A program made the translations under genes and the position numbers. From contig JAJZNW010000015.1 of NCBI GenBank assembly GCA_021811615.1, positions 1 through 64,000 on the forward strand: 64,000 nucleotides of DNA, given 5' to 3'. Positions 3,066-11,167 of this stretch are shown here, in pieces. A model generated the notes under the pieces. The model saw only the letters and a program-made list of their open reading frames with translations, was not told the origin of the DNA and ran no database searches. The first letter of the stretch is position 1; every line of letters starts with the position of its first letter. This stretch comes from Bacteroidota bacterium (lineage in GTDB: Bacteria > Bacteroidota > Ignavibacteria > Kryptoniales > JAKASW01).

Positions 3066-3941
3066 CTATCGTGCACGAGGTGGTATCCAGTCGTCCCTGC
3101 TTATGCTCTTCAATTTGACGACGATACTTCCCAGGATTACCTTGAGATCGGCTCGTAACGGAACCTCCGCGGAGTCAGCTGAGATCCACCCGTTGAATTG
3201 TCCAGTTACTCCGAAGGTCCCTGTGAAATTGATATGACCCGAAAGCCTTTCGGCTTCGATGGGAAAATCGAACGCGTCGACTTCGCATTTCCCGTGCTTT
3301 TCATTTATCGTCAACGTCACAGTGGATCGGACGGTATCTGAGACGATCGGGATTTCCAGCGTTTCCTTTTTCCCATCCGATGTCCTGCAAGCTTCTCTCA
3401 CGTAGTAAAAAAAACTCAAACCGTCCGTGTAAGTAGTATCGAGGGGCATTTCGACTTTTTTAACTACCACTCCTTTAACAGACTCCTCCCATGTCAAAAT
3501 CTTGCGGACGTAGTTGAATATGTAATCGCTTCGCACCTTCTTGTCGCCCTCGTCCTTTTCGTTGTAGGTGGAGAGGCACGTGAGATCCCGGGCATTGGCA
3601 CAAGTTTCATATACTGCATGATAATCGACGAAAGGTATCCCGCTGTAGGAATCGATGAAAGCACGGATCCGGTATGACGGTACTCCATCGCAAACCTCTT
3701 TCCCAAGCAGCTCAAACTTGACAGTGCCGAGTTTGAAGAAAAGATAACTCGCCTCGAATGTTACCGATTCCCTCGGCTGCATTATGTATCTCTCCTCAGA
3801 CATACTCCACCCGCTGGTTCGCATCGCCGTGCCCATGTCATTCAACAGAGACGAGGCAACGATGACTTTCAACAAGAAAAGAGTGGAAATTGAAACCCCT
3901 GGAATCGCCACGAAGGCTGCGGAACGCTTTAGCAAGGACAT
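3066..3941 (-). CDS. DUF3108 family exported protein
   Basis: 291 residues starting at an ATG followed by a hydrophobic segment (residues about 8-30), so probably exported or membrane anchored. The body matches the DUF3108 pattern: an N-terminal part around ESVTFEASYLFFKLGTVKFE, a central DYIFNYVRKILTWE segment, the TYTDGLSFFYYVRE block, and a C-terminal DLKVILGSIVVKLKS strand pair. Family members are periplasmic beta-rich proteins of unknown function in Gram-negative bacteria. The gene lies 284 bases beyond the usher-like gene on the same strand. It could be the last member of that operon, but the gap is too large to be sure. Confidence 0.75.
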   Translation of the reverse strand: MSLLKRSAAFVAIPGVSISTLFLLKVIVASSLLNDMGTAMRTSGWSMSEERYIMQPRESVTFEASYLFFKLGTVKFELLGKEVCDGVPSYRIRAFIDSYSGIPFVDYHAVYETCANARDLTCLSTYNEKDEGDKKVRSDYIFNYVRKILTWEESVKGVVVKKVEMPLDTTYTDGLSFFYYVREACRTSDGKKETLEIPIVSDTVRSTVTLTINEKHGKCEVDAFDFPIEAERLSGHINFTGTFGVTGQFNGWISADSAEVPLRADLKVILGSIVVKLKSISRDDWIPPRAR

Positions 3942-4225: not shown

Positions 4226-7200
4226 TCACTGCACGCTGATGATCTTCATCGACTTAAACAGTTTGAGGGTTTCAAGCTCATTCATGAGCGACTTTGCCGT
4301 CTTGCGATAGGGAGTCGGTGTTGTGTAGACCTCGAACCTGAGTGTGGTGGAGTCGAAATCTATCAGGGCATCTATGCCGCGACGGTCGAACAGGCCGCTG
4401 GCGAACGCAAGGGCGCTCCGGTAGTTGTCAAACTCGCCAAGGAGCACCGCATACCTGTCCACGATATAACGACCCGCGAAAAGCAACTCCGCCCGCCTGA
4501 ATTGCCGGAAGGTTCTCACTTTATCGAGGAGATTCTGTGCATCGGTTTCATTTCCGAACGCACCGACGATCACTTCGTACAAGCGCAATGGAGAATTGTA
4601 ACCGAGCCTGGTTTTCATGCCCAGCATCGCACGCGATTCGGAAGCGAATCTCTCCGCGTCGGACAGAGACCGGAAGAATCCGAGGCGGACTGAGAATGTG
4701 TACCGAACATTCGAGTCAGGAAGAACCATAACGAATGCGTCTCTGATTCCGTAATCGTAAATCAGTCTTTGCTCAAGCCGGTAGGCTTCCTCCCCTTCCT
4801 TCATAGTGTCGAGTTGGACGGCGTACAGGCTGGATTTCGGATTGTACCTTACATGGACAACTCTGCCGATCCTTCTTTGGAGTTCGGAGGCAAACAATCT
4901 TGCCCTGTCGCGCTCGGAGAACGCTCCCAGCTGAATCATGTATCTCATTGCACGGATTGCGGCAGCTTTCTTCTCTCGGGCCGCTACTACGGCAGGCGGA
5001 GGAGGGGCGCTCAGGACAAAACTGAGACCCTTAATGAAATCGCCCGATTTCTTCGACTCGACCGTGAAATCCCTGTACATCGGTGCCGACGTGTCGCCGA
5101 GCGCGGATACCTGGCTCGGGTCGACATAGATCTTGTAGTCTCCAGGCGGGACTCCCACATAGTAAATGCTCCCGTCATTAAACGCCGAAATGGTTTTTCT
5201 GTACTTCCCGTGTATCGCTTCGACGATTACCTCAATCCCTGGAACTGCTCTTTGCCTTCCTTTCACAACCCTCTTCACGCTCCCCTGAATGACACCGGCA
5301 GTATAGAACGGTATGTCTATCGGCTTGTATACGTTGGGATCGGTAATAAACGAAAAGGATTTTCTGACCGGCATCCATAACGGGTTTTGCAGAGAGCCCG
5401 ATTGAATGTCGGCACTGTACTGAGTGTAAGGGAGAAGATCCCACGCCCTAATGATCCCAGACGTGAAAAGATCTGACGACACCGCCTGTCGAAGAACTAT
5501 ATCTCCGTTCTTTATGAGCACGTCGCCCTTATCGAACTTCCCGTCCTGATTATTGTCCAGGTACATGCGCATCGATACTGCCGACTGACCGGCCCACTGT
5601 ACACGATTGAAAAGGAATTCCCCGTAGTGCGAATCGTACCCCACCGAACCGCTGACAAATTGAGTCGAGTTCCTTTGACCTCCCTGAACGGTAGTGGAAC
5701 TCGATGCTTGCATGAAAGGCAAATCCCAAGTGAGCTGGAGGTTGAATGATATATCGTGATTAAGCAAGTCTCCATTCACCGAGAACTGGGCCGAGACCGC
5801 ATTCCCAATGTACTGCGATAAATCCAATCTGACCGTCGTGATGGAATTCGACCCCAAATCGTAATCCGCGGTGAGTCCGGCAAGCGTTCCGTTTACGAAA
5901 CTGAAAGCTCCGTTGCCAAGGAAGAAAGAGTACAGCAATGCCGCCGTAAGAGTCTTGCCTATAGCCGGGCTCTGAGATGCATAAGCCTGATAGGAGCCTG
6001 TATAGTTGAACGAAATATTGAATCTCGACACGCTTGCCTCGACGCCTCCGGAGTAGCTCAAGGTTTTGCTGCCGCCATAGTAATTCTGGCCATTGCCGGC
6101 GAAATCAAGGTCAAGCATATTTGTTCCGAATGGGAATGGAAGGTAAACGGTGCCGGACAGCTGGTTGAGTTCTCCGGATGGGTTGTAGAGTCCGTTTTTG
6201 TAGTAGTGGTAATATGTCAGGTTGACTGAGGCCTGCGAAGGGTACACAGCCTCGAGAGTACTCTCATACAGCATTGAAGGCGCCGCCGTCAAAGTAAGAA
6301 TATACGGTGAACCTATTCTCATCGTGAAAGAATTGTAAGGCACCGGTTTGTTGAAGAGCGGACTCTGAAGATAGTCTGCTCCGACCTCCTCGGTCAGCCA
6401 GCCGGTAAGCCCGTAGGATGCGTTCACCTGTACAAGGTTGCTGTTCGATGTGCTTAGCTTACCGGCATTGATAGTGTAATCGAACTCACCCTTAGGAATC
6501 AGGTTGAAGGGTATCTGAAGACGCCTGTCTAATTCTTCAAACTGCCCGGAAGGTCCGAAGGTTTTCAGCTGGAGATATGAAGATCCGTAAACAAGAGGGA
6601 TATCATAATGTACTCTTCCGAACGCGTTGGCCTGGGCAAAGCCCACCCGCTCTCCGTTCAGATAGAGCTCGGTCTGCCAACCTGGCTGAACGTTCGCGTC
6701 GAATGCATAACTTCCGAAGAACCTCCTGAGTTGAACCGGTTGATTTGTTATCTGGACTCCCCGAAAGTCGTACTGGTTTATTCCGTTGCTGAAAAGATTG
6801 CCAACGGAAAAGCTCGTTATCACCCTGGTAGAATCGATAACGTATCGCCAGTGAATTTCTTTTGTGTAAATAGTCGATTGTTTACCGACCATTTCACCGC
6901 TGAGAGTTCCCTCGATATCTCCGCCGAGCAATTCTCCGCCTGCGAGGAAATTGTAGGAGTATGAAGGGGTGCTGCCGCTGTAGTATGATCCGAGGGAGTA
7001 GTCCATGACCCCGCCGTTCAGGAGGGACCAGTTTCTCGGATATTCAAGAGGTGCCTGCGGTCTGAAGATGCCGAGCGGTTGAGTCTGATACTGCATGTTC
7101 ACTTTTCGCTGATAGCTCGAGATAATCGGCAGCTTGAGCGTGGTTTTCAGCAATATCGTCAGCCTGTTCATATCGAGAGAGAAATCCAGCTTAAACATCT

Positions 7201-7651
7201 TGCGGAAGAACGCGGGAAGCACATAGAAATCGACCGGACCCCTGATAAAATCGGTGGAGTCGAACGTAAACTTCTTCCCCCCAACGTGAACGGTCAGCCT
7301 ATCGAAGCTGATCGTATATTTATCAGACTCCTTGATGTAAAAACCCGAGATGGTCCCTTTGCGGATATCGAGATGGTTATCCAACTGTAAATCGTTGAAG
7401 AGCGTATGAACGGGGAGGTAAATTGAGTTGCCTGCGTAGAGAGCTGTGACATAGGTATCGACGAGCCCTCCGTAGCCGAACGTAAATATCACCGGTTGCT
7501 GATGTACAGGGGTGGAGAAACCCGCCGGCTCCGGGTCGGAGGAATTATTTTTCCCGGCACGCGGCGTTGCGGACACCACCGACGCAAGAAAAAAGGCTGT
7601 TATCGGCAAAACTAATCGCAGGGACTGCCTGCAGAAAGATCTATAGTCCAT
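4226..7651 (-). CDS. Usher-like outer-membrane protein with three C-terminal SPOR-like repeats
   Basis: 1141 residues with a signal peptide ending near SVVSATP. Residues about 50-180 form a small alpha/beta domain with NSIYLPVHTLFNDL and LTILLKTTLKLP strands. Residues about 200-780 are aromatic-rich alternating strands typical of a beta-barrel. They include an usher-like turn (ELYLNGERVGFAQ, about 330) and an YLDNNQDGKFDKGD segment (about 697) as seen in usher C-terminal regions. A carboxypeptidase-regulatory-like beta domain follows (GVIQGSVKRV to GDYKIYVDPS). From about 900 come three tandem SPOR-like repeats, opening RYMIQLGAFSERDRARLFAS, RYTFSVRLGFFRSLSDAERF and RYAVLLGEFDNYRSALAFAS. SPOR domains bind denuded peptidoglycan. 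It is the last gene after the four DUF4402-like subunits and the chaperone, so the likely role is export and assembly of those subunits. No clear ribosome binding site precedes the start. Confidence 0.8.
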   Translation of the reverse strand: MDYRSFCRQSLRLVLPITAFFLASVVSATPRAGKNNSSDPEPAGFSTPVHQQPVIFTFGYGGLVDTYVTALYAGNSIYLPVHTLFNDLQLDNHLDIRKGTISGFYIKESDKYTISFDRLTVHVGGKKFTFDSTDFIRGPVDFYVLPAFFRKMFKLDFSLDMNRLTILLKTTLKLPIISSYQRKVNMQYQTQPLGIFRPQAPLEYPRNWSLLNGGVMDYSLGSYYSGSTPSYSYNFLAGGELLGGDIEGTLSGEMVGKQSTIYTKEIHWRYVIDSTRVITSFSVGNLFSNGINQYDFRGVQITNQPVQLRRFFGSYAFDANVQPGWQTELYLNGERVGFAQANAFGRVHYDIPLVYGSSYLQLKTFGPSGQFEELDRRLQIPFNLIPKGEFDYTINAGKLSTSNSNLVQVNASYGLTGWLTEEVGADYLQSPLFNKPVPYNSFTMRIGSPYILTLTAAPSMLYESTLEAVYPSQASVNLTYYHYYKNGLYNPSGELNQLSGTVYLPFPFGTNMLDLDFAGNGQNYYGGSKTLSYSGGVEASVSRFNISFNYTGSYQAYASQSPAIGKTLTAALLYSFFLGNGAFSFVNGTLAGLTADYDLGSNSITTVRLDLSQYIGNAVSAQFSVNGDLLNHDISFNLQLTWDLPFMQASSSTTVQGGQRNSTQFVSGSVGYDSHYGEFLFNRVQWAGQSAVSMRMYLDNNQDGKFDKGDVLIKNGDIVLRQAVSSDLFTSGIIRAWDLLPYTQYSADIQSGSLQNPLWMPVRKSFSFITDPNVYKPIDIPFYTAGVIQGSVKRVVKGRQRAVPGIEVIVEAIHGKYRKTISAFNDGSIYYVGVPPGDYKIYVDPSQVSALGDTSAPMYRDFTVESKKSGDFIKGLSFVLSAPPPPAVVAAREKKAAAIRAMRYMIQLGAFSERDRARLFASELQRRIGRVVHVRYNPKSSLYAVQLDTMKEGEEAYRLEQRLIYDYGIRDAFVMVLPDSNVRYTFSVRLGFFRSLSDAERFASESRAMLGMKTRLGYNSPLRLYEVIVGAFGNETDAQNLLDKVRTFRQFRRAELLFAGRYIVDRYAVLLGEFDNYRSALAFASGLFDRRGIDALIDFDSTTLRFEVYTTPTPYRKTAKSLMNELETLKLFKSMKIISVQ

Positions 7652-7963
7652 GTGTCATTGTATGGGGAGGCGAGGAATTGTGCCTCCGTCGGCAAAGAGT
7701 CGCCCGGCTGACTATATCTCAGCCGGCGGGGTTGATCTCTTTAGTCCTTGTCGTGTCGATTGAGCCGGACCACGACTACTTTCCCCATACAGGCCCTGCC
7801 GCTTCCGCTCAGGCTTTGGGCCTGCCGGAGTCAGACACTTTTCTCGGGATGTTCTACTCCTATTTTCGTTGTTCTCAAAAGGTTGCCGTTGTCGGGAAGC
7901 CCGGCTCCAAATGCTCAGAAGGTTCATGTGGCAATCGCGAGCACACCCGATGTAACCACATTC
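7652..7963. other. 312-base gap between chaperone and usher genes
   Basis: No coding frame here shows family features or a ribosome binding site. The only structure I see is an 8-bp stem-loop at 7704-7726, listed separately. The gap is unusual inside an otherwise tightly spaced operon and may hold a promoter, a processing site or a decayed gene. Confidence 0.5.
7704..7726 (-). promoter_or_regulatory. Stem-loop between chaperone and usher genes
   Basis: CCGGCTGA at 7704-7711 pairs with TCAGCCGG at 7719-7726 around a 7-base loop. Transcription runs leftward and no U tract follows, so it is not a classical intrinsic terminator. In operons where subunits outnumber the usher, such hairpins often act as RNA stability or attenuation elements; that role is inference. 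Confidence 0.4.
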
Positions 7964-8788
7964 TTACTTCACTGTGAAGGTAAACGACTTTGACACAGGG
8001 ATCATCTTAAGCTGTTGGTTGGGAGGGATGTCGGATCTGTTGGTGGAAAGCGTCAGAGTGGCACTGTAATTTCCCGCAGGCAGCTTGGAGAGTGGTATGT
8101 CGAATCTTTTCACGAAGCTCATGTAGACCGCGATCAGTCCTTCATTGGCATAAACGATGTCTCCGTTTTGGTTTGAGACATGGATCGAGACGGTGCCGAG
8201 GAAAGGGGCGTTCCCTGTCCGCTTCAGGTCGGCGTACAGATTCACCGAAGCAGAATCTTGAGCCGAGTGGAATCCATCGATCTGAACTCCAGTTGCAAGA
8301 TTGCCCTTCTCGTACATGACTGAAGTGATTTGCCGGAAAACGAAGATGATGTTCGCAGTTATACCCGATTTTATCTGTCCGACGAATCTCTGCTGGGGCT
8401 GCGATATTGTAACGAGCCGGGACCAGTAAACGCCGTCGTTCAGACTATCCGGGCTGGACACCGACATGTGCACAACCTGTTCCTGACCGGGATTGAGGAC
8501 GAATTTAGTCGGGAATGCGCTGAGCCAGGAGGCGCACGAAAAATCTTTCGCACTTCCGGTGCTGTCGTTGTAATCCATGAATATGTTCCCGACCGAATCG
8601 GTGTTGGGATAGCCGAACTTGAATTTGATATCGACTTCCTGCGGCACGGTGGAAACGTTAGAGACTACAAACGTCCCGTAAGGAAGTTGATCGGAAATAA
8701 AAACTATGGGTGGAGCGATTACGACCTGTGCGCCGGCATCGATGGCGAACAGCATCATCGCAAGAAATACTAAAGCTCTCTTCTTCAA
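7964..8788 (-). CDS. PapD-like periplasmic fimbrial chaperone
   Basis: 274 residues. The start is TTG at 8788 with an AAGGAG box five bases upstream that overlaps the stop of the preceding gene, so translation is probably coupled. A signal peptide ends at IDAGAQ. The mature protein has the two-immunoglobulin-fold layout of pilus chaperones. The first domain has the edge strands APPIVFISDQLPYGTFVVSN, and the G1-strand region includes PTKFVLNPGQEQVVHMSV and DGVYWSRLVT. The second domain runs from about 165 to the end. It resembles chaperones paired with DUF4402/Csu-type subunits more than classical PapD. It probably stabilises the four small subunits encoded just upstream before delivery to the usher-like protein. 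Confidence 0.75.
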   Translation of the reverse strand: MKKRALVFLAMMLFAIDAGAQVVIAPPIVFISDQLPYGTFVVSNVSTVPQEVDIKFKFGYPNTDSVGNIFMDYNDSTGSAKDFSCASWLSAFPTKFVLNPGQEQVVHMSVSSPDSLNDGVYWSRLVTISQPQQRFVGQIKSGITANIIFVFRQITSVMYEKGNLATGVQIDGFHSAQDSASVNLYADLKRTGNAPFLGTVSIHVSNQNGDIVYANEGLIAVYMSFVKRFDIPLSKLPAGNYSATLTLSTNRSDIPPNQQLKMIPVSKSFTFTVK

Positions 8789-8797
8789 TCTTACTCC

Positions 8798-9379
8798 TTA
8801 ATCTTCGTCGTGATCTATGTTTACTTGAACTCTGATATCGCCTTCATACTGACCGGAGGGTTGCTGAGGCTGGACGTAGATCGTCGCACCGAGCCAGAGA
8901 TAGAGTTTACCCGTAACGAGAGCCGACGAAGGAAGTTGTAACCTCGAATTTGGATTGAAAGTAGTCGCGTTGCCTGGGTCGTTATATGGCGACCATGCGG
9001 CGCTGCTTCCATCGAATTGAATTTGCAGGTGACCGTCCCCCGACTGAAGGAATGCAGGCAGGTAGAAGATCAAGGAAACGGTCTCATTTTTTCCAAAGCC
9101 GTCGACAAGAGCCCTTGCAGCGTCAGAATCGGTAAATGGGATCCTCTTTTGAAGATCGCGTCCGATTACAACGGTTCCGAAAGAGAGATTATTCAATACC
9201 TGCACAGACAGGTTCTCTCCCCGGTTGCCGTTCCATCTTGCATAAGCAGGGACCGCAAAGATAATTGCGCCGCCAAGGGAGGCCACCAGAAAGGCCAGGC
9301 CGAAAAAGAAGCCGTCCAATCGTCGATTCACCGCGGCCTGAGGGGACATTACAGGTCTCATCTTCGTCACTTGTGCCAT
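8798..9379 (-). CDS. DUF4402-like secreted subunit (fourth of four)
   Basis: 193 residues from ATG at 9379, with GGAG/AAGG just upstream. The N-terminus is long (about 24 residues) before a hydrophobic export segment that ends near VPAYA. The mature part has the DUF4402 layout seen in the neighbouring genes: SVQVLNNLSFGTVVIGRD at the start, a central strand block, a KLYLWLGATIYVQPQQPSGQ motif and a final strand (YEGDIRVQVNI). In related loci such proteins are the structural or tip subunits handled by a PapD-like chaperone. It ends 9 bases before the chaperone start. The acidic tail DHDED is distinctive. Confidence 0.65.
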   Translation of the reverse strand: MAQVTKMRPVMSPQAAVNRRLDGFFFGLAFLVASLGGAIIFAVPAYARWNGNRGENLSVQVLNNLSFGTVVIGRDLQKRIPFTDSDAARALVDGFGKNETVSLIFYLPAFLQSGDGHLQIQFDGSSAAWSPYNDPGNATTFNPNSRLQLPSSALVTGKLYLWLGATIYVQPQQPSGQYEGDIRVQVNIDHDED

Positions 9380-9470
9380 CCTTGCTCCATTCTCATTGGC
9401 ATCCTGAATTTCTCCTTGTTCATCGTGCTCGAAAGCATATTCATAAGTAAGTCGATTCCAGAAGAGCCTT

Positions 9471-9989
9471 CTAGAGAATCAACGTGATTTCATATTTCCC
9501 GGTGTATGTGCCGCTGGGCAAATTCTTCGGTATAAGGAGATTCCCGAACAGATAAACATATGCAAACCCCGTCCAATGCTCCCGGTTCGCACTCAGCGTA
9601 AATGATGCGAGCCTTTTTCCGGAAACAGGGATGTCCTTTGAAGTGGCCGGGTCGTTCGCCTTATCGTTGTAGGCCGCTCCACCAGAGTAGCGGATGCTGT
9701 CTGCGTCCCCCATCAGATACTTAGGAGCCTTGACAGACATATAGATAGGCAAGCCTCTGTACACGCCCGTGAGCAGAAACTGACCCGCTTGTCCGCTTGT
9801 CTTGGATATCTTCCGTGACCCCGATTTCATTTCGGCCGGACTGAAGTAGATTTTCCTCGTGACGGAGATAGTGAGCCCGGGATACGGAACAACAACCTTT
9901 ATGGAAGACATTTGGTGCATCAGGACTTGCTGCGAGTATGCCACACTGCTCCATAGCAGCAGGCCGCACACCGGCAATTGAAACCACAA
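9471..9989 (-). CDS. DUF4402-like secreted subunit (third of four)
   Basis: 172 residues if read from the TTG at 9989. No ribosome binding site is visible there and the frame is open further upstream, so the start is uncertain; translation may be coupled to the gene before it. A signal peptide ends at SSVAYSQ. The mature part has the conserved C-terminal signature YVYLFGNLLIPKNLPSGTYT followed by a GKYEITLIL strand, matching the LGGSVYVPPGQAPGTYTGVF and LGATIYVQPQQPSGQYEG endings of its neighbours. This shared ending supports one paralogous family. Probably a fimbrial or surface-fibre subunit. Confidence 0.6.
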   Translation of the reverse strand: MWFQLPVCGLLLWSSVAYSQQVLMHQMSSIKVVVPYPGLTISVTRKIYFSPAEMKSGSRKISKTSGQAGQFLLTGVYRGLPIYMSVKAPKYLMGDADSIRYSGGAAYNDKANDPATSKDIPVSGKRLASFTLSANREHWTGFAYVYLFGNLLIPKNLPSGTYTGKYEITLIL

Positions 9990-10026
9990 CAGGCGGGCGG
10001 CACCGGATCTAATTGTCGCCAGTTGC

Positions 10027-10593
10027 CTAGTATCCTATGGTTATGTTGAACACCCCGGTGTAAGTTCCGGGAGCCTGGCCCGGCGGCACATATACCGAAC
10101 CGCCCAGCCAAAAATAGAAGTGACCCTGACTTCCAAGAGTGAGGGACGAGCCGCTCGGTAACGGAGAGGCGGCCTGTTGCATCGTCAGCCCAGTGGCACC
10201 GACAACGTTTGGAACGAAATTGATGCTTGTCCCTCCCTGGCCGTTATGCACGAGTTGAACCGATGGGGTGTATGATATGGTAACATTCATCGTCGGTTCT
10301 CCGTTTATCGTCATCAATCCTGCCGATGGGCTCGAGTTCGGATTGACGTTCGAAGCCCGCGTACTCTGCGTCGCTACTCCGAGATTTATATTTCCCAGAC
10401 CGTCGCTGCCGGCAGAGGGTGTGACCGAAAGGCCCTGGACAAGGTCTGCCTGGACTGTTATCGGCGGGCTGGCAGCGCTTTTTTGCTGCTGCGCCATGGC
10501 GACGGCGGCCGGGAACATTATTCCCGTAAGTAAGCAGAGCGTCCGTCCAAATCTCCGGACGGACGCCCATTTATCTGAAATAGATTTTACCAT
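10027..10593 (-). CDS. DUF4402-like secreted subunit (second of four)
   Basis: 188 residues from ATG at 10593, with AAGGG eight bases upstream. The signal peptide ends near AVAMAQ. The mature sequence opens with ITVQADLVQGLSVTPSAG and ends with FYFWLGGSVYVPPGQAPGTY followed by a TGVFNITIGY strand, the typical DUF4402 first and last strand pattern. It is closest in layout to the first subunit (shared LGSxGxxYxxxGG block, FTPNV/FVPNV motif). Low-complexity Ser/Pro/Gly stretches fill the middle. Same operon as the chaperone and usher. Confidence 0.7.
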   Translation of the reverse strand: MVKSISDKWASVRRFGRTLCLLTGIMFPAAVAMAQQQKSAASPPITVQADLVQGLSVTPSAGSDGLGNINLGVATQSTRASNVNPNSSPSAGLMTINGEPTMNVTISYTPSVQLVHNGQGGTSINFVPNVVGATGLTMQQAASPLPSGSSLTLGSQGHFYFWLGGSVYVPPGQAPGTYTGVFNITIGY

Positions 10594-10636
10594 TTGACTA
10601 ACCCTTCTTCACAGACTATTCGCTAGCCGTGGAAGT

Positions 10637-11167
10637 TTAGTCGTTGGGGTAAGAGACCGTTATTTCAAACTGGCCCGAATATTGGCCGGTAGCCTGGGTG
10701 GTCAAAATGGAACTCGGCAATTTTCCGCCGACGAAGAGGTAGTAATTTCCATCGGACCCAAGGGTAACGCTGTTGCTGTTCAACGCACTCGCACCAGATG
10801 TAGTCGCGCTGCCCCAGACATTAGGAGTGAAGTTTAATGTAGCCGACCCGTTGTTAAGGGTGACGTTTGAAGTAGTGCCGGACAATGTGACCTGAGAATT
10901 GTCGTCGCCGACGATCTGCAGCTCAACCGAACCCTGTCCGTTCGGTGTAATTGTCGGAGCGGTAGTAACCGGCAGCGTCAATGTACCGAAGTCGAGCGTG
11001 GCGTTGCTGCCGACCAGGTTCATGCTAAGGCCGCGCGTCAGCTTTGCCTTAACATTGATGTTCTGCCCAACATTGTTGCTACTGGTTTGATTGTTACCTG
11101 GGCCATCCGCTAAAGCGACGGCCGCAACCGTGAACATCAACGCAATCGCTACGATTACGTTTTTCAT
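10637..11167 (-). CDS. DUF4402-like secreted subunit (first of four, likely major subunit)
   Basis: 176 residues from ATG at 11167, with a strong GGAGG six bases upstream. Signal peptide MKNVIVAIALMFTVAAVALA. The mature protein is rich in Asn, Ser, Thr and Gly and almost free of Cys. It contains NVKAKLTRGLSMNLVGSNAT, LDFGTLTLPV, FTPNVWG, TLGSDGNYYLFVGG and a final QYSGQFEITVSYPND. This is the DUF4402 pattern. First position in the operon, the strong ribosome binding site and the composition suggest the most abundant structural subunit, which is inference from position. The 11168-11833 region upstream should hold the operon promoter. Confidence 0.75.
   Translation of the reverse strand: MKNVIVAIALMFTVAAVALADGPGNNQTSSNNVGQNINVKAKLTRGLSMNLVGSNATLDFGTLTLPVTTAPTITPNGQGSVELQIVGDDNSQVTLSGTTSNVTLNNGSATLNFTPNVWGSATTSGASALNSNSVTLGSDGNYYLFVGGKLPSSILTTQATGQYSGQFEITVSYPND

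Follow-up and report, generated by a model that had tools for sequence, protein, structure and literature searches.

An archaic-like chaperone-usher operon of Bacteroidota with a probable peptidoglycan tether on its usher

We analyzed a stretch of 64,000 nucleotides from a Bacteroidota bacterium of the class Ignavibacteria (contig JAJZNW010000015.1, positions 1 to 64,000; hereafter the window). Six open reading frames (ORFs) at 4226-11167, all on the minus strand, encode four DUF4402-type pilins (176, 188, 172, and 193 amino acids [aa] in operon order), followed by a two-domain chaperone (274 aa) and an usher (1141 aa) that ends in three SPOR-like repeats. We suggest that these genes probably form an archaic-like chaperone-usher pilus operon whose usher is tethered to peptidoglycan. 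Judged from sequence, the defining features of a chaperone-usher pathway that we tested appear to be present, except for recognition by curated models. Features of the operon are collected in Table 1.

Results

The operon and its relatives

An original prediction, made from the DNA letters, had described these genes as a fimbrial operon. To place them among their relatives, we examined 78 loci that encode a related usher; these loci are the best matches rather than a random sample, and the frequencies of usher tails given below are descriptive. The chaperone gene adjoins the usher gene in 73 of the 78 loci and DUF4402-type pilins lie upstream in 71, and most of the loci keep the order pilins-chaperone-usher. 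Among the genomes sampled, the usher family was found in 12 of 20 in the order, all belonging to one genus, in 66 of 294 in the class, and in 89 of 395 in the phylum. The window comes from a lineage of metagenome-assembled genomes labelled Bacteroidetes; copies of its usher with 91% and 86% identity are present in the genomes SKS5.bin54 and DX1.bin11.

The large protein aligns with known ushers

We built a core usher family profile from 58 sequences, leaving out signal peptides and tails, and compared it with known ushers using hhalign. The family aligned with Escherichia coli FimD, HtrE, ElfC, YehB, and YraJ at 98.1% (E-value 9.5e-14, 506 columns), and at 98.9% (E-value 3.4e-17, 589 columns) when CsuD was added. 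The alignment spans the barrel, plug, and C-terminal domains, up to FimD residue 848 of 878; in relatives, the C-terminal usher domain also shows CarboxypepD_reg/SdrD_B matches. When known ushers were compared singly with the family, HtrE and CsuD each reached 96.2% and FimD 5.4%, and EcpC gave no alignment (3.9%). The nulls were negative: a reversed usher alignment scored 1.0%, an alignment of four TonB-dependent receptors 0.2%, and FhuA, LptD, and BamA, each taken singly, 0.3% or less. About 115 conserved residues precede the barrel; they have no match to PapC_N, the type of N-terminal domain by which ushers recruit complexes of chaperone and pilin, and this match is also missing from CsuD. 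A sequence search of the PDB returned no relative of the window usher, and the usher and chaperone family profiles likewise found nothing among PDB sequences. The profile comparisons, which cover almost the whole protein, support the earlier view that the large barrel protein is an usher, and we place it on a divergent branch of the ushers, beyond the reach of the Pfam Usher model (PF00577).

Among the related ushers, those of L078, L075, L099, L101, L105, and L065 have long N-terminal extensions that, by eye, resemble fibronectin-type-III-like repeats. Several related usher genes (upstream in L024, L027, L028, L029, and L033) have no ATG, GTG, or TTG before the conserved region. They have in common a GGGAG and then ATCTGCGC upstream, which suggests an ATC start codon.

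Three SPOR-like repeats end the window usher

Residues 902-1141 of the usher, which follow the CTD2-like domain and a short linker, are three SPOR-like repeats. Tested alone, repeats 1 and 2 exceed the Pfam SPOR (PF05036) cut-off of 21 bits (Table 1). The third repeat of the original prediction is not recognized by Pfam and stands through family profiles, which join it to repeat 2 (98.7%) and to repeat 1 (97.1%); five segments of the usher body gave 2.4% or less. Among NCBIfam models, RlpA matches the tail best, at 33 bits and far below the cut-off of 201 for that model. In the E. coli ushers and CsuD, PapC_C or CooC_C is the last domain, with no SPOR-like addition, in keeping with the earlier statement that classical ushers are devoid of a SPOR domain.

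Wall-binding domains recur at the C termini of related ushers

The ushers of the 78 loci end in SPOR (33 loci), OmpA (10), or TPR (8) domains, or in no recognized tail (27). The usher-SPOR architecture is widespread in the phylum and is not unique to the window. Every OmpA tail and a large share of the SPOR and TPR tails were checked with Pfam, and the remaining members of the window genus were assigned by homology; nine of the 10 OmpA-type tails (PF00691) lie above the cut-off, and a few SPOR matches (L068, L070, and L129) fall just under it. Tails may also be combined, as in L073 (SPOR plus LysM) and L068 (SPOR plus TPR). Outside the class, the usher family f43 carries mostly SPOR tails, and in some members an acidic linker several hundred residues long precedes the tail. 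In a maximum-likelihood tree built from usher cores, 14 changes are required to explain the four tail states and 9 to explain the SPOR state, 8 of which are forced by well-supported branches; the tree was made quickly and contains several long branches, which leaves the exact counts unsure, and gain is not separable from loss. We take predicted peptidoglycan binding, and not SPOR itself, as the recurrent trait.

The usher of L033 (4550-7099) stops inside the first SPOR repeat, which reflects a genuine truncation or a fault in the assembly.

The chaperone carries a candidate donor strand and an archaic-type anchor residue

Residues 143-151 of the chaperone show an alternating pattern. Among 53 relatives, columns 143, 145, 147, 149, and 151 are hydrophobic in 94%, 89%, 100%, 94%, and 91% of sequences, respectively, whereas columns 144, 146, and 148 are so in only 8%, 2%, and 17%. 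Such an alternation is what a G1 donor strand would require. Arg124, which stands in a Y-W-x-R motif and is present in 50 of the 53 relatives, aligns with CsuC Arg89 in strand F of domain 1, the residue that anchors the pilin carboxylate and has been called the most characteristic of archaic/alternative chaperones (PMC4654587). The classical paired anchor (PapD Arg8 and Lys112) is absent, the aligned positions being Ile/Leu and Ser/Thr. In domain 2, Tyr222, also found in 50 of the 53 relatives, aligns one column off CsuC Tyr196, and the position of CsuC Arg174 holds a Thr in the window chaperone, with Lys or Arg confined to about half of the genus. In profile alignments with signal peptides included, the chaperone family matched a known set including CsuC and EcpB at 95.0%; EcpB alone reached 79.1%, better than any single classical chaperone tried. 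On these residues and alignments, the chaperone sides with the archaic/alternative group.

The TTG start codon of the chaperone gene lies 10 bases beyond the stop codon of the nearest pilin gene and is preceded by AAGGAG, so that the coupled translation proposed earlier for this two-domain chaperone is plausible. In an AlphaFold model of the chaperone (predicted local distance difference test [pLDDT] of 47.5), the strands fit two immunoglobulin-like domains. Foldseek searches with this model returned mostly unrelated beta-rich proteins, with a template modelling (TM) score of about 0.2, and were not used as evidence.

Four DUF4402-like proteins are candidate pilins

The four short paralogous secreted proteins were found as described, together with their shared C-terminal motif, G-x-Y-x-G, whose first G and Y are invariant in 21 relatives. 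Against a Pfam DUF4402 cut-off of 25.2 bits, two of them score above, one just below, and one matches in its C-terminal part only, which agrees with the reading of all four as DUF4402-like subunits. The ORF list places the third pilin at 9471-9989; comparison with L003 and L004 moves its start to 10013, where it probably begins at an ATT codon at the position of an ATG in L004. Classical pilins match the DUF4402 family at the C-terminal strand only. The SCPU model (PF05229), which finds five stretches in the Csu locus, has no match in the genome of the window. We regard the DUF4402 proteins, with moderate certainty, as pilin-like on sequence alone, and the gene order, with pilins upstream in nearly all loci, adds to this identity. 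Their sequences are compatible with polymerization by donor strands.

In paralogous operons of the genus, a two-domain pilin of 305-368 aa adjoins the chaperone; unlike these paralogues, the window operon contains no two-domain pilin or tip adhesin.

Table 1. Predicted features of the operon, with positions in the window
Feature	Position	Strand	Basis
Usher with C-terminal SPOR tail	4226..7651	-	hhalign 98.9% with FimD-type ushers plus CsuD
Usher plug-domain region, about residues 311-383	6503..6721	-	Alignment with FimD plug; weak PF00577 match of L068 here
C-terminal usher domain, CTD2-like, about residues 763-845	5117..5365	-	Aligns with FimD C terminus
SPOR repeat 1, residues 902-981	4709..4948	-	Pfam 32.8 bits, tested alone
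SPOR repeat 2, residues 982-1063	4463..4708	-	Pfam 33.5 bits, tested alone
SPOR-like repeat 3, residues 1064-1141	4229..4462	-	No Pfam match; family profile with repeat 2
Two-domain periplasmic chaperone	7964..8788	-	Profile match to known chaperones; adjoins usher in most loci
Proposed G1 donor strand, chaperone residues 143-151	8336..8362	-	Alternating hydrophobic columns in 53 relatives
Chaperone Arg124, counterpart of CsuC Arg89	8417..8419	-	Conserved Arg; alignment with CsuC
DUF4402-type pilin, first operon gene	10637..11167	-	Pfam DUF4402 34.8 bits; conserved in L003, L004, L023
DUF4402-type pilin, second operon gene	10027..10593	-	Pfam DUF4402 37.2 bits; relatives 75-91% identical
DUF4402-like pilin, third operon gene	9471..10013	-	C-terminal DUF4402 match only, 16.5 bits, below cut-off
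DUF4402-like pilin, fourth operon gene	8798..9379	-	DUF4402 23.4 bits, just below cut-off; conserved in relatives

Discussion

A proposed mechanism for a wall-tethered pilus

Homology and motifs suggest the following course of events. Pilins would enter the periplasm, where the G1 strand of the chaperone would cap them before they pass to the usher, through whose barrel they would polymerize. The C-terminal domain (CTD2) of known ushers lies in the periplasm, so the SPOR repeats are expected beside peptidoglycan. By binding glycan strands at this site, the repeats would fix the usher to the wall and so hold the base of the fibre as well. The idea of anchoring is strengthened by relatives in which the same end of the usher bears OmpA or LysM domains in addition to SPOR.

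Several results weigh against this reading. First, the window usher has no PF00577 match (one relative reaches 15.2 against a cut-off of 27.1 bits), SPOR being the only Pfam family found in it, and the 274-aa protein matches neither PapD_N nor any other relevant Pfam chaperone model. Second, the structure prediction of 4226-7651 that had been proposed as a check was run with AlphaFold on a three-sequence alignment; at a pLDDT of 28 it is uninformative. Third, profile scores depend on signal peptides: the alignment of the chaperone family (53 sequences) with classical chaperones falls from 91.2% to 51.8% when these are left out, and that of the DUF4402 family with Csu pilins, 91.0% over the full length, falls to 25.4%. 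Last, 27 of the 78 loci have no recognized tail and 8 have TPR, so tethering would not be essential to the pathway. We read the missing PF00577 match as divergence because the profile comparison is positive. For the chaperone, we give the specific signs (the donor strand and Arg124) more weight than the scores.

Alternative explanations

A different role for the SPOR tail has to be weighed against the wall tether. The tail might act mainly as an address label rather than as a mechanical anchor, directing the usher to the division septum or to young poles and giving septal or polar pili. Among the 78 loci, SPOR tails are seen more often than any other kind, and the SPOR domains of other proteins bind denuded glycan strands, which are enriched in the septal ring (PMC6895207). 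The tails of other relatives point elsewhere: the OmpA-type domains of 10 ushers and the LysM domain of one are general peptidoglycan binders. To our knowledge, neither domain has a septal preference, and their occurrence at the SPOR position favours wall attachment over septal targeting as the common denominator. We consider the address label unlikely as an account of the tail, but keep septal or polar placement of SPOR-tailed ushers as a serious rival.

It is also conceivable that the pilin-like proteins are exported as a surface coat or an amorphous matrix instead of pili, with a tail that merely stabilizes a large barrel. The modest resemblance to archaic pilins once signal peptides are removed would fit such a coat, as would the missing two-domain tip adhesin that the paralogues possess. 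Several pilin genes per operon, a donor-strand chaperone, and an usher nevertheless make up a full set for donor-strand polymerization, and we judge a coat to be improbable. A view of the large protein as some unrelated porin or transporter, whose neighbours form no chaperone-usher system, is very hard to sustain. The window protein has neither a PF00577 match, a PDB sequence relative, nor a usable structure prediction, but its alignment with known ushers takes in the barrel, the plug, and the C-terminal domains, with negative nulls, and its relatives almost always adjoin a chaperone.

Comparison with known pathways

One close parallel to the operon is the archaic (sigma) pathway, exemplified by the Csu pili of Acinetobacter baumannii. 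Both share the gene order, the chaperone arginine equivalent to CsuC Arg89, and the G-x-Y motif at the pilin C terminus, and the two-domain pilin encoded by the paralogous operons is reminiscent of CsuE, a protein with two SCPU matches. They differ in that the pilins here are DUF4402 and not SCPU, that PF00577 and PapD_N do not match the proteins here, and that the SPOR tail is missing from CsuD. With the classical pathway (FimD and HtrE), the system shares an usher body colinear with FimD from the barrel to the C-terminal domains, but PapC_N is not detected, the classical chaperone anchor residues are absent from the alignment, and classical ushers end after PapC_C. The alternative (alpha) pathway (EcpB/EcpC) resembles it in the EcpB match of the chaperone family and in a CarboxypepD_reg-like C-terminal domain of both ushers; in contrast, the EcpC usher does not align, and TcfC and CooC_C were not found in the proteins here. 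We assign no named subgroup, because the chaperone is archaic/alternative-like, while alignments of the usher extend to classical ushers and CsuD but not to EcpC.

Among ushers that carry an additional domain, the nearest precedent is CupB3, the P-usher of Pseudomonas aeruginosa; its extra domain is reportedly POTRA-like, serves protein secretion, and is not a C-terminal peptidoglycan binder. RlpA and FtsN also have a SPOR domain, but neither is an usher or bears a barrel, and the window usher has three repeats in tandem. What distinguishes the system from known chaperone-usher pathways is its type of pilin and the tail of its usher.

Implications

The ushers known to us lie in the outer membrane, and we know of no described wall anchor for them, although pili bear large pulling forces. 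That several kinds of wall-binding domain turn up repeatedly on a single usher family suggests that tethering is selected for, and the question of how the base of a pilus withstands force becomes testable. It also suggests that many bacteria of the phylum hold surface fibres in the wall in a manner undescribed for well-studied pili. More broadly, the balance tips slightly towards a phylum-wide, Bacteroidota-type class of chaperone-usher systems that fastens its usher to peptidoglycan through interchangeable SPOR, OmpA, or LysM modules, wall-anchored and load-bearing pili then being a separate branch of the pathway unseen by current models. None of the 19 full-length family ushers scanned with Pfam reaches the Usher cut-off; the standard models miss a widespread branch of chaperone-usher systems, and surveys based on them will undercount pili in the phylum. 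Our literature search, in which subscription journals were incompletely covered, found no description of ushers with peptidoglycan-binding domains (SPOR or OmpA), nor any for DUF4402; the novelty of peptidoglycan-binding ushers is provisional.

Neighbouring genes

In the genome of the window, a site on contig C127 (L147, 5708-7602) encodes three consecutive DUF4402-like pilins with no adjoining chaperone or usher. In the window, the usher gene is followed by a gene for a DUF3108 protein (3066-3941, minus strand), which is kept in the three closest relatives at 60-91% identity and was not found at the paralogous operons. TPR-tailed ushers (L130, 9802-12204; L134, 9889-12297; L139, 9902-12561; and L069, 8083-10451) are directly followed by a protein of 620-690 aa with FliG-like domains, which in two cases also shows a FliF_C-like domain; the next gene encodes a small TPR protein.

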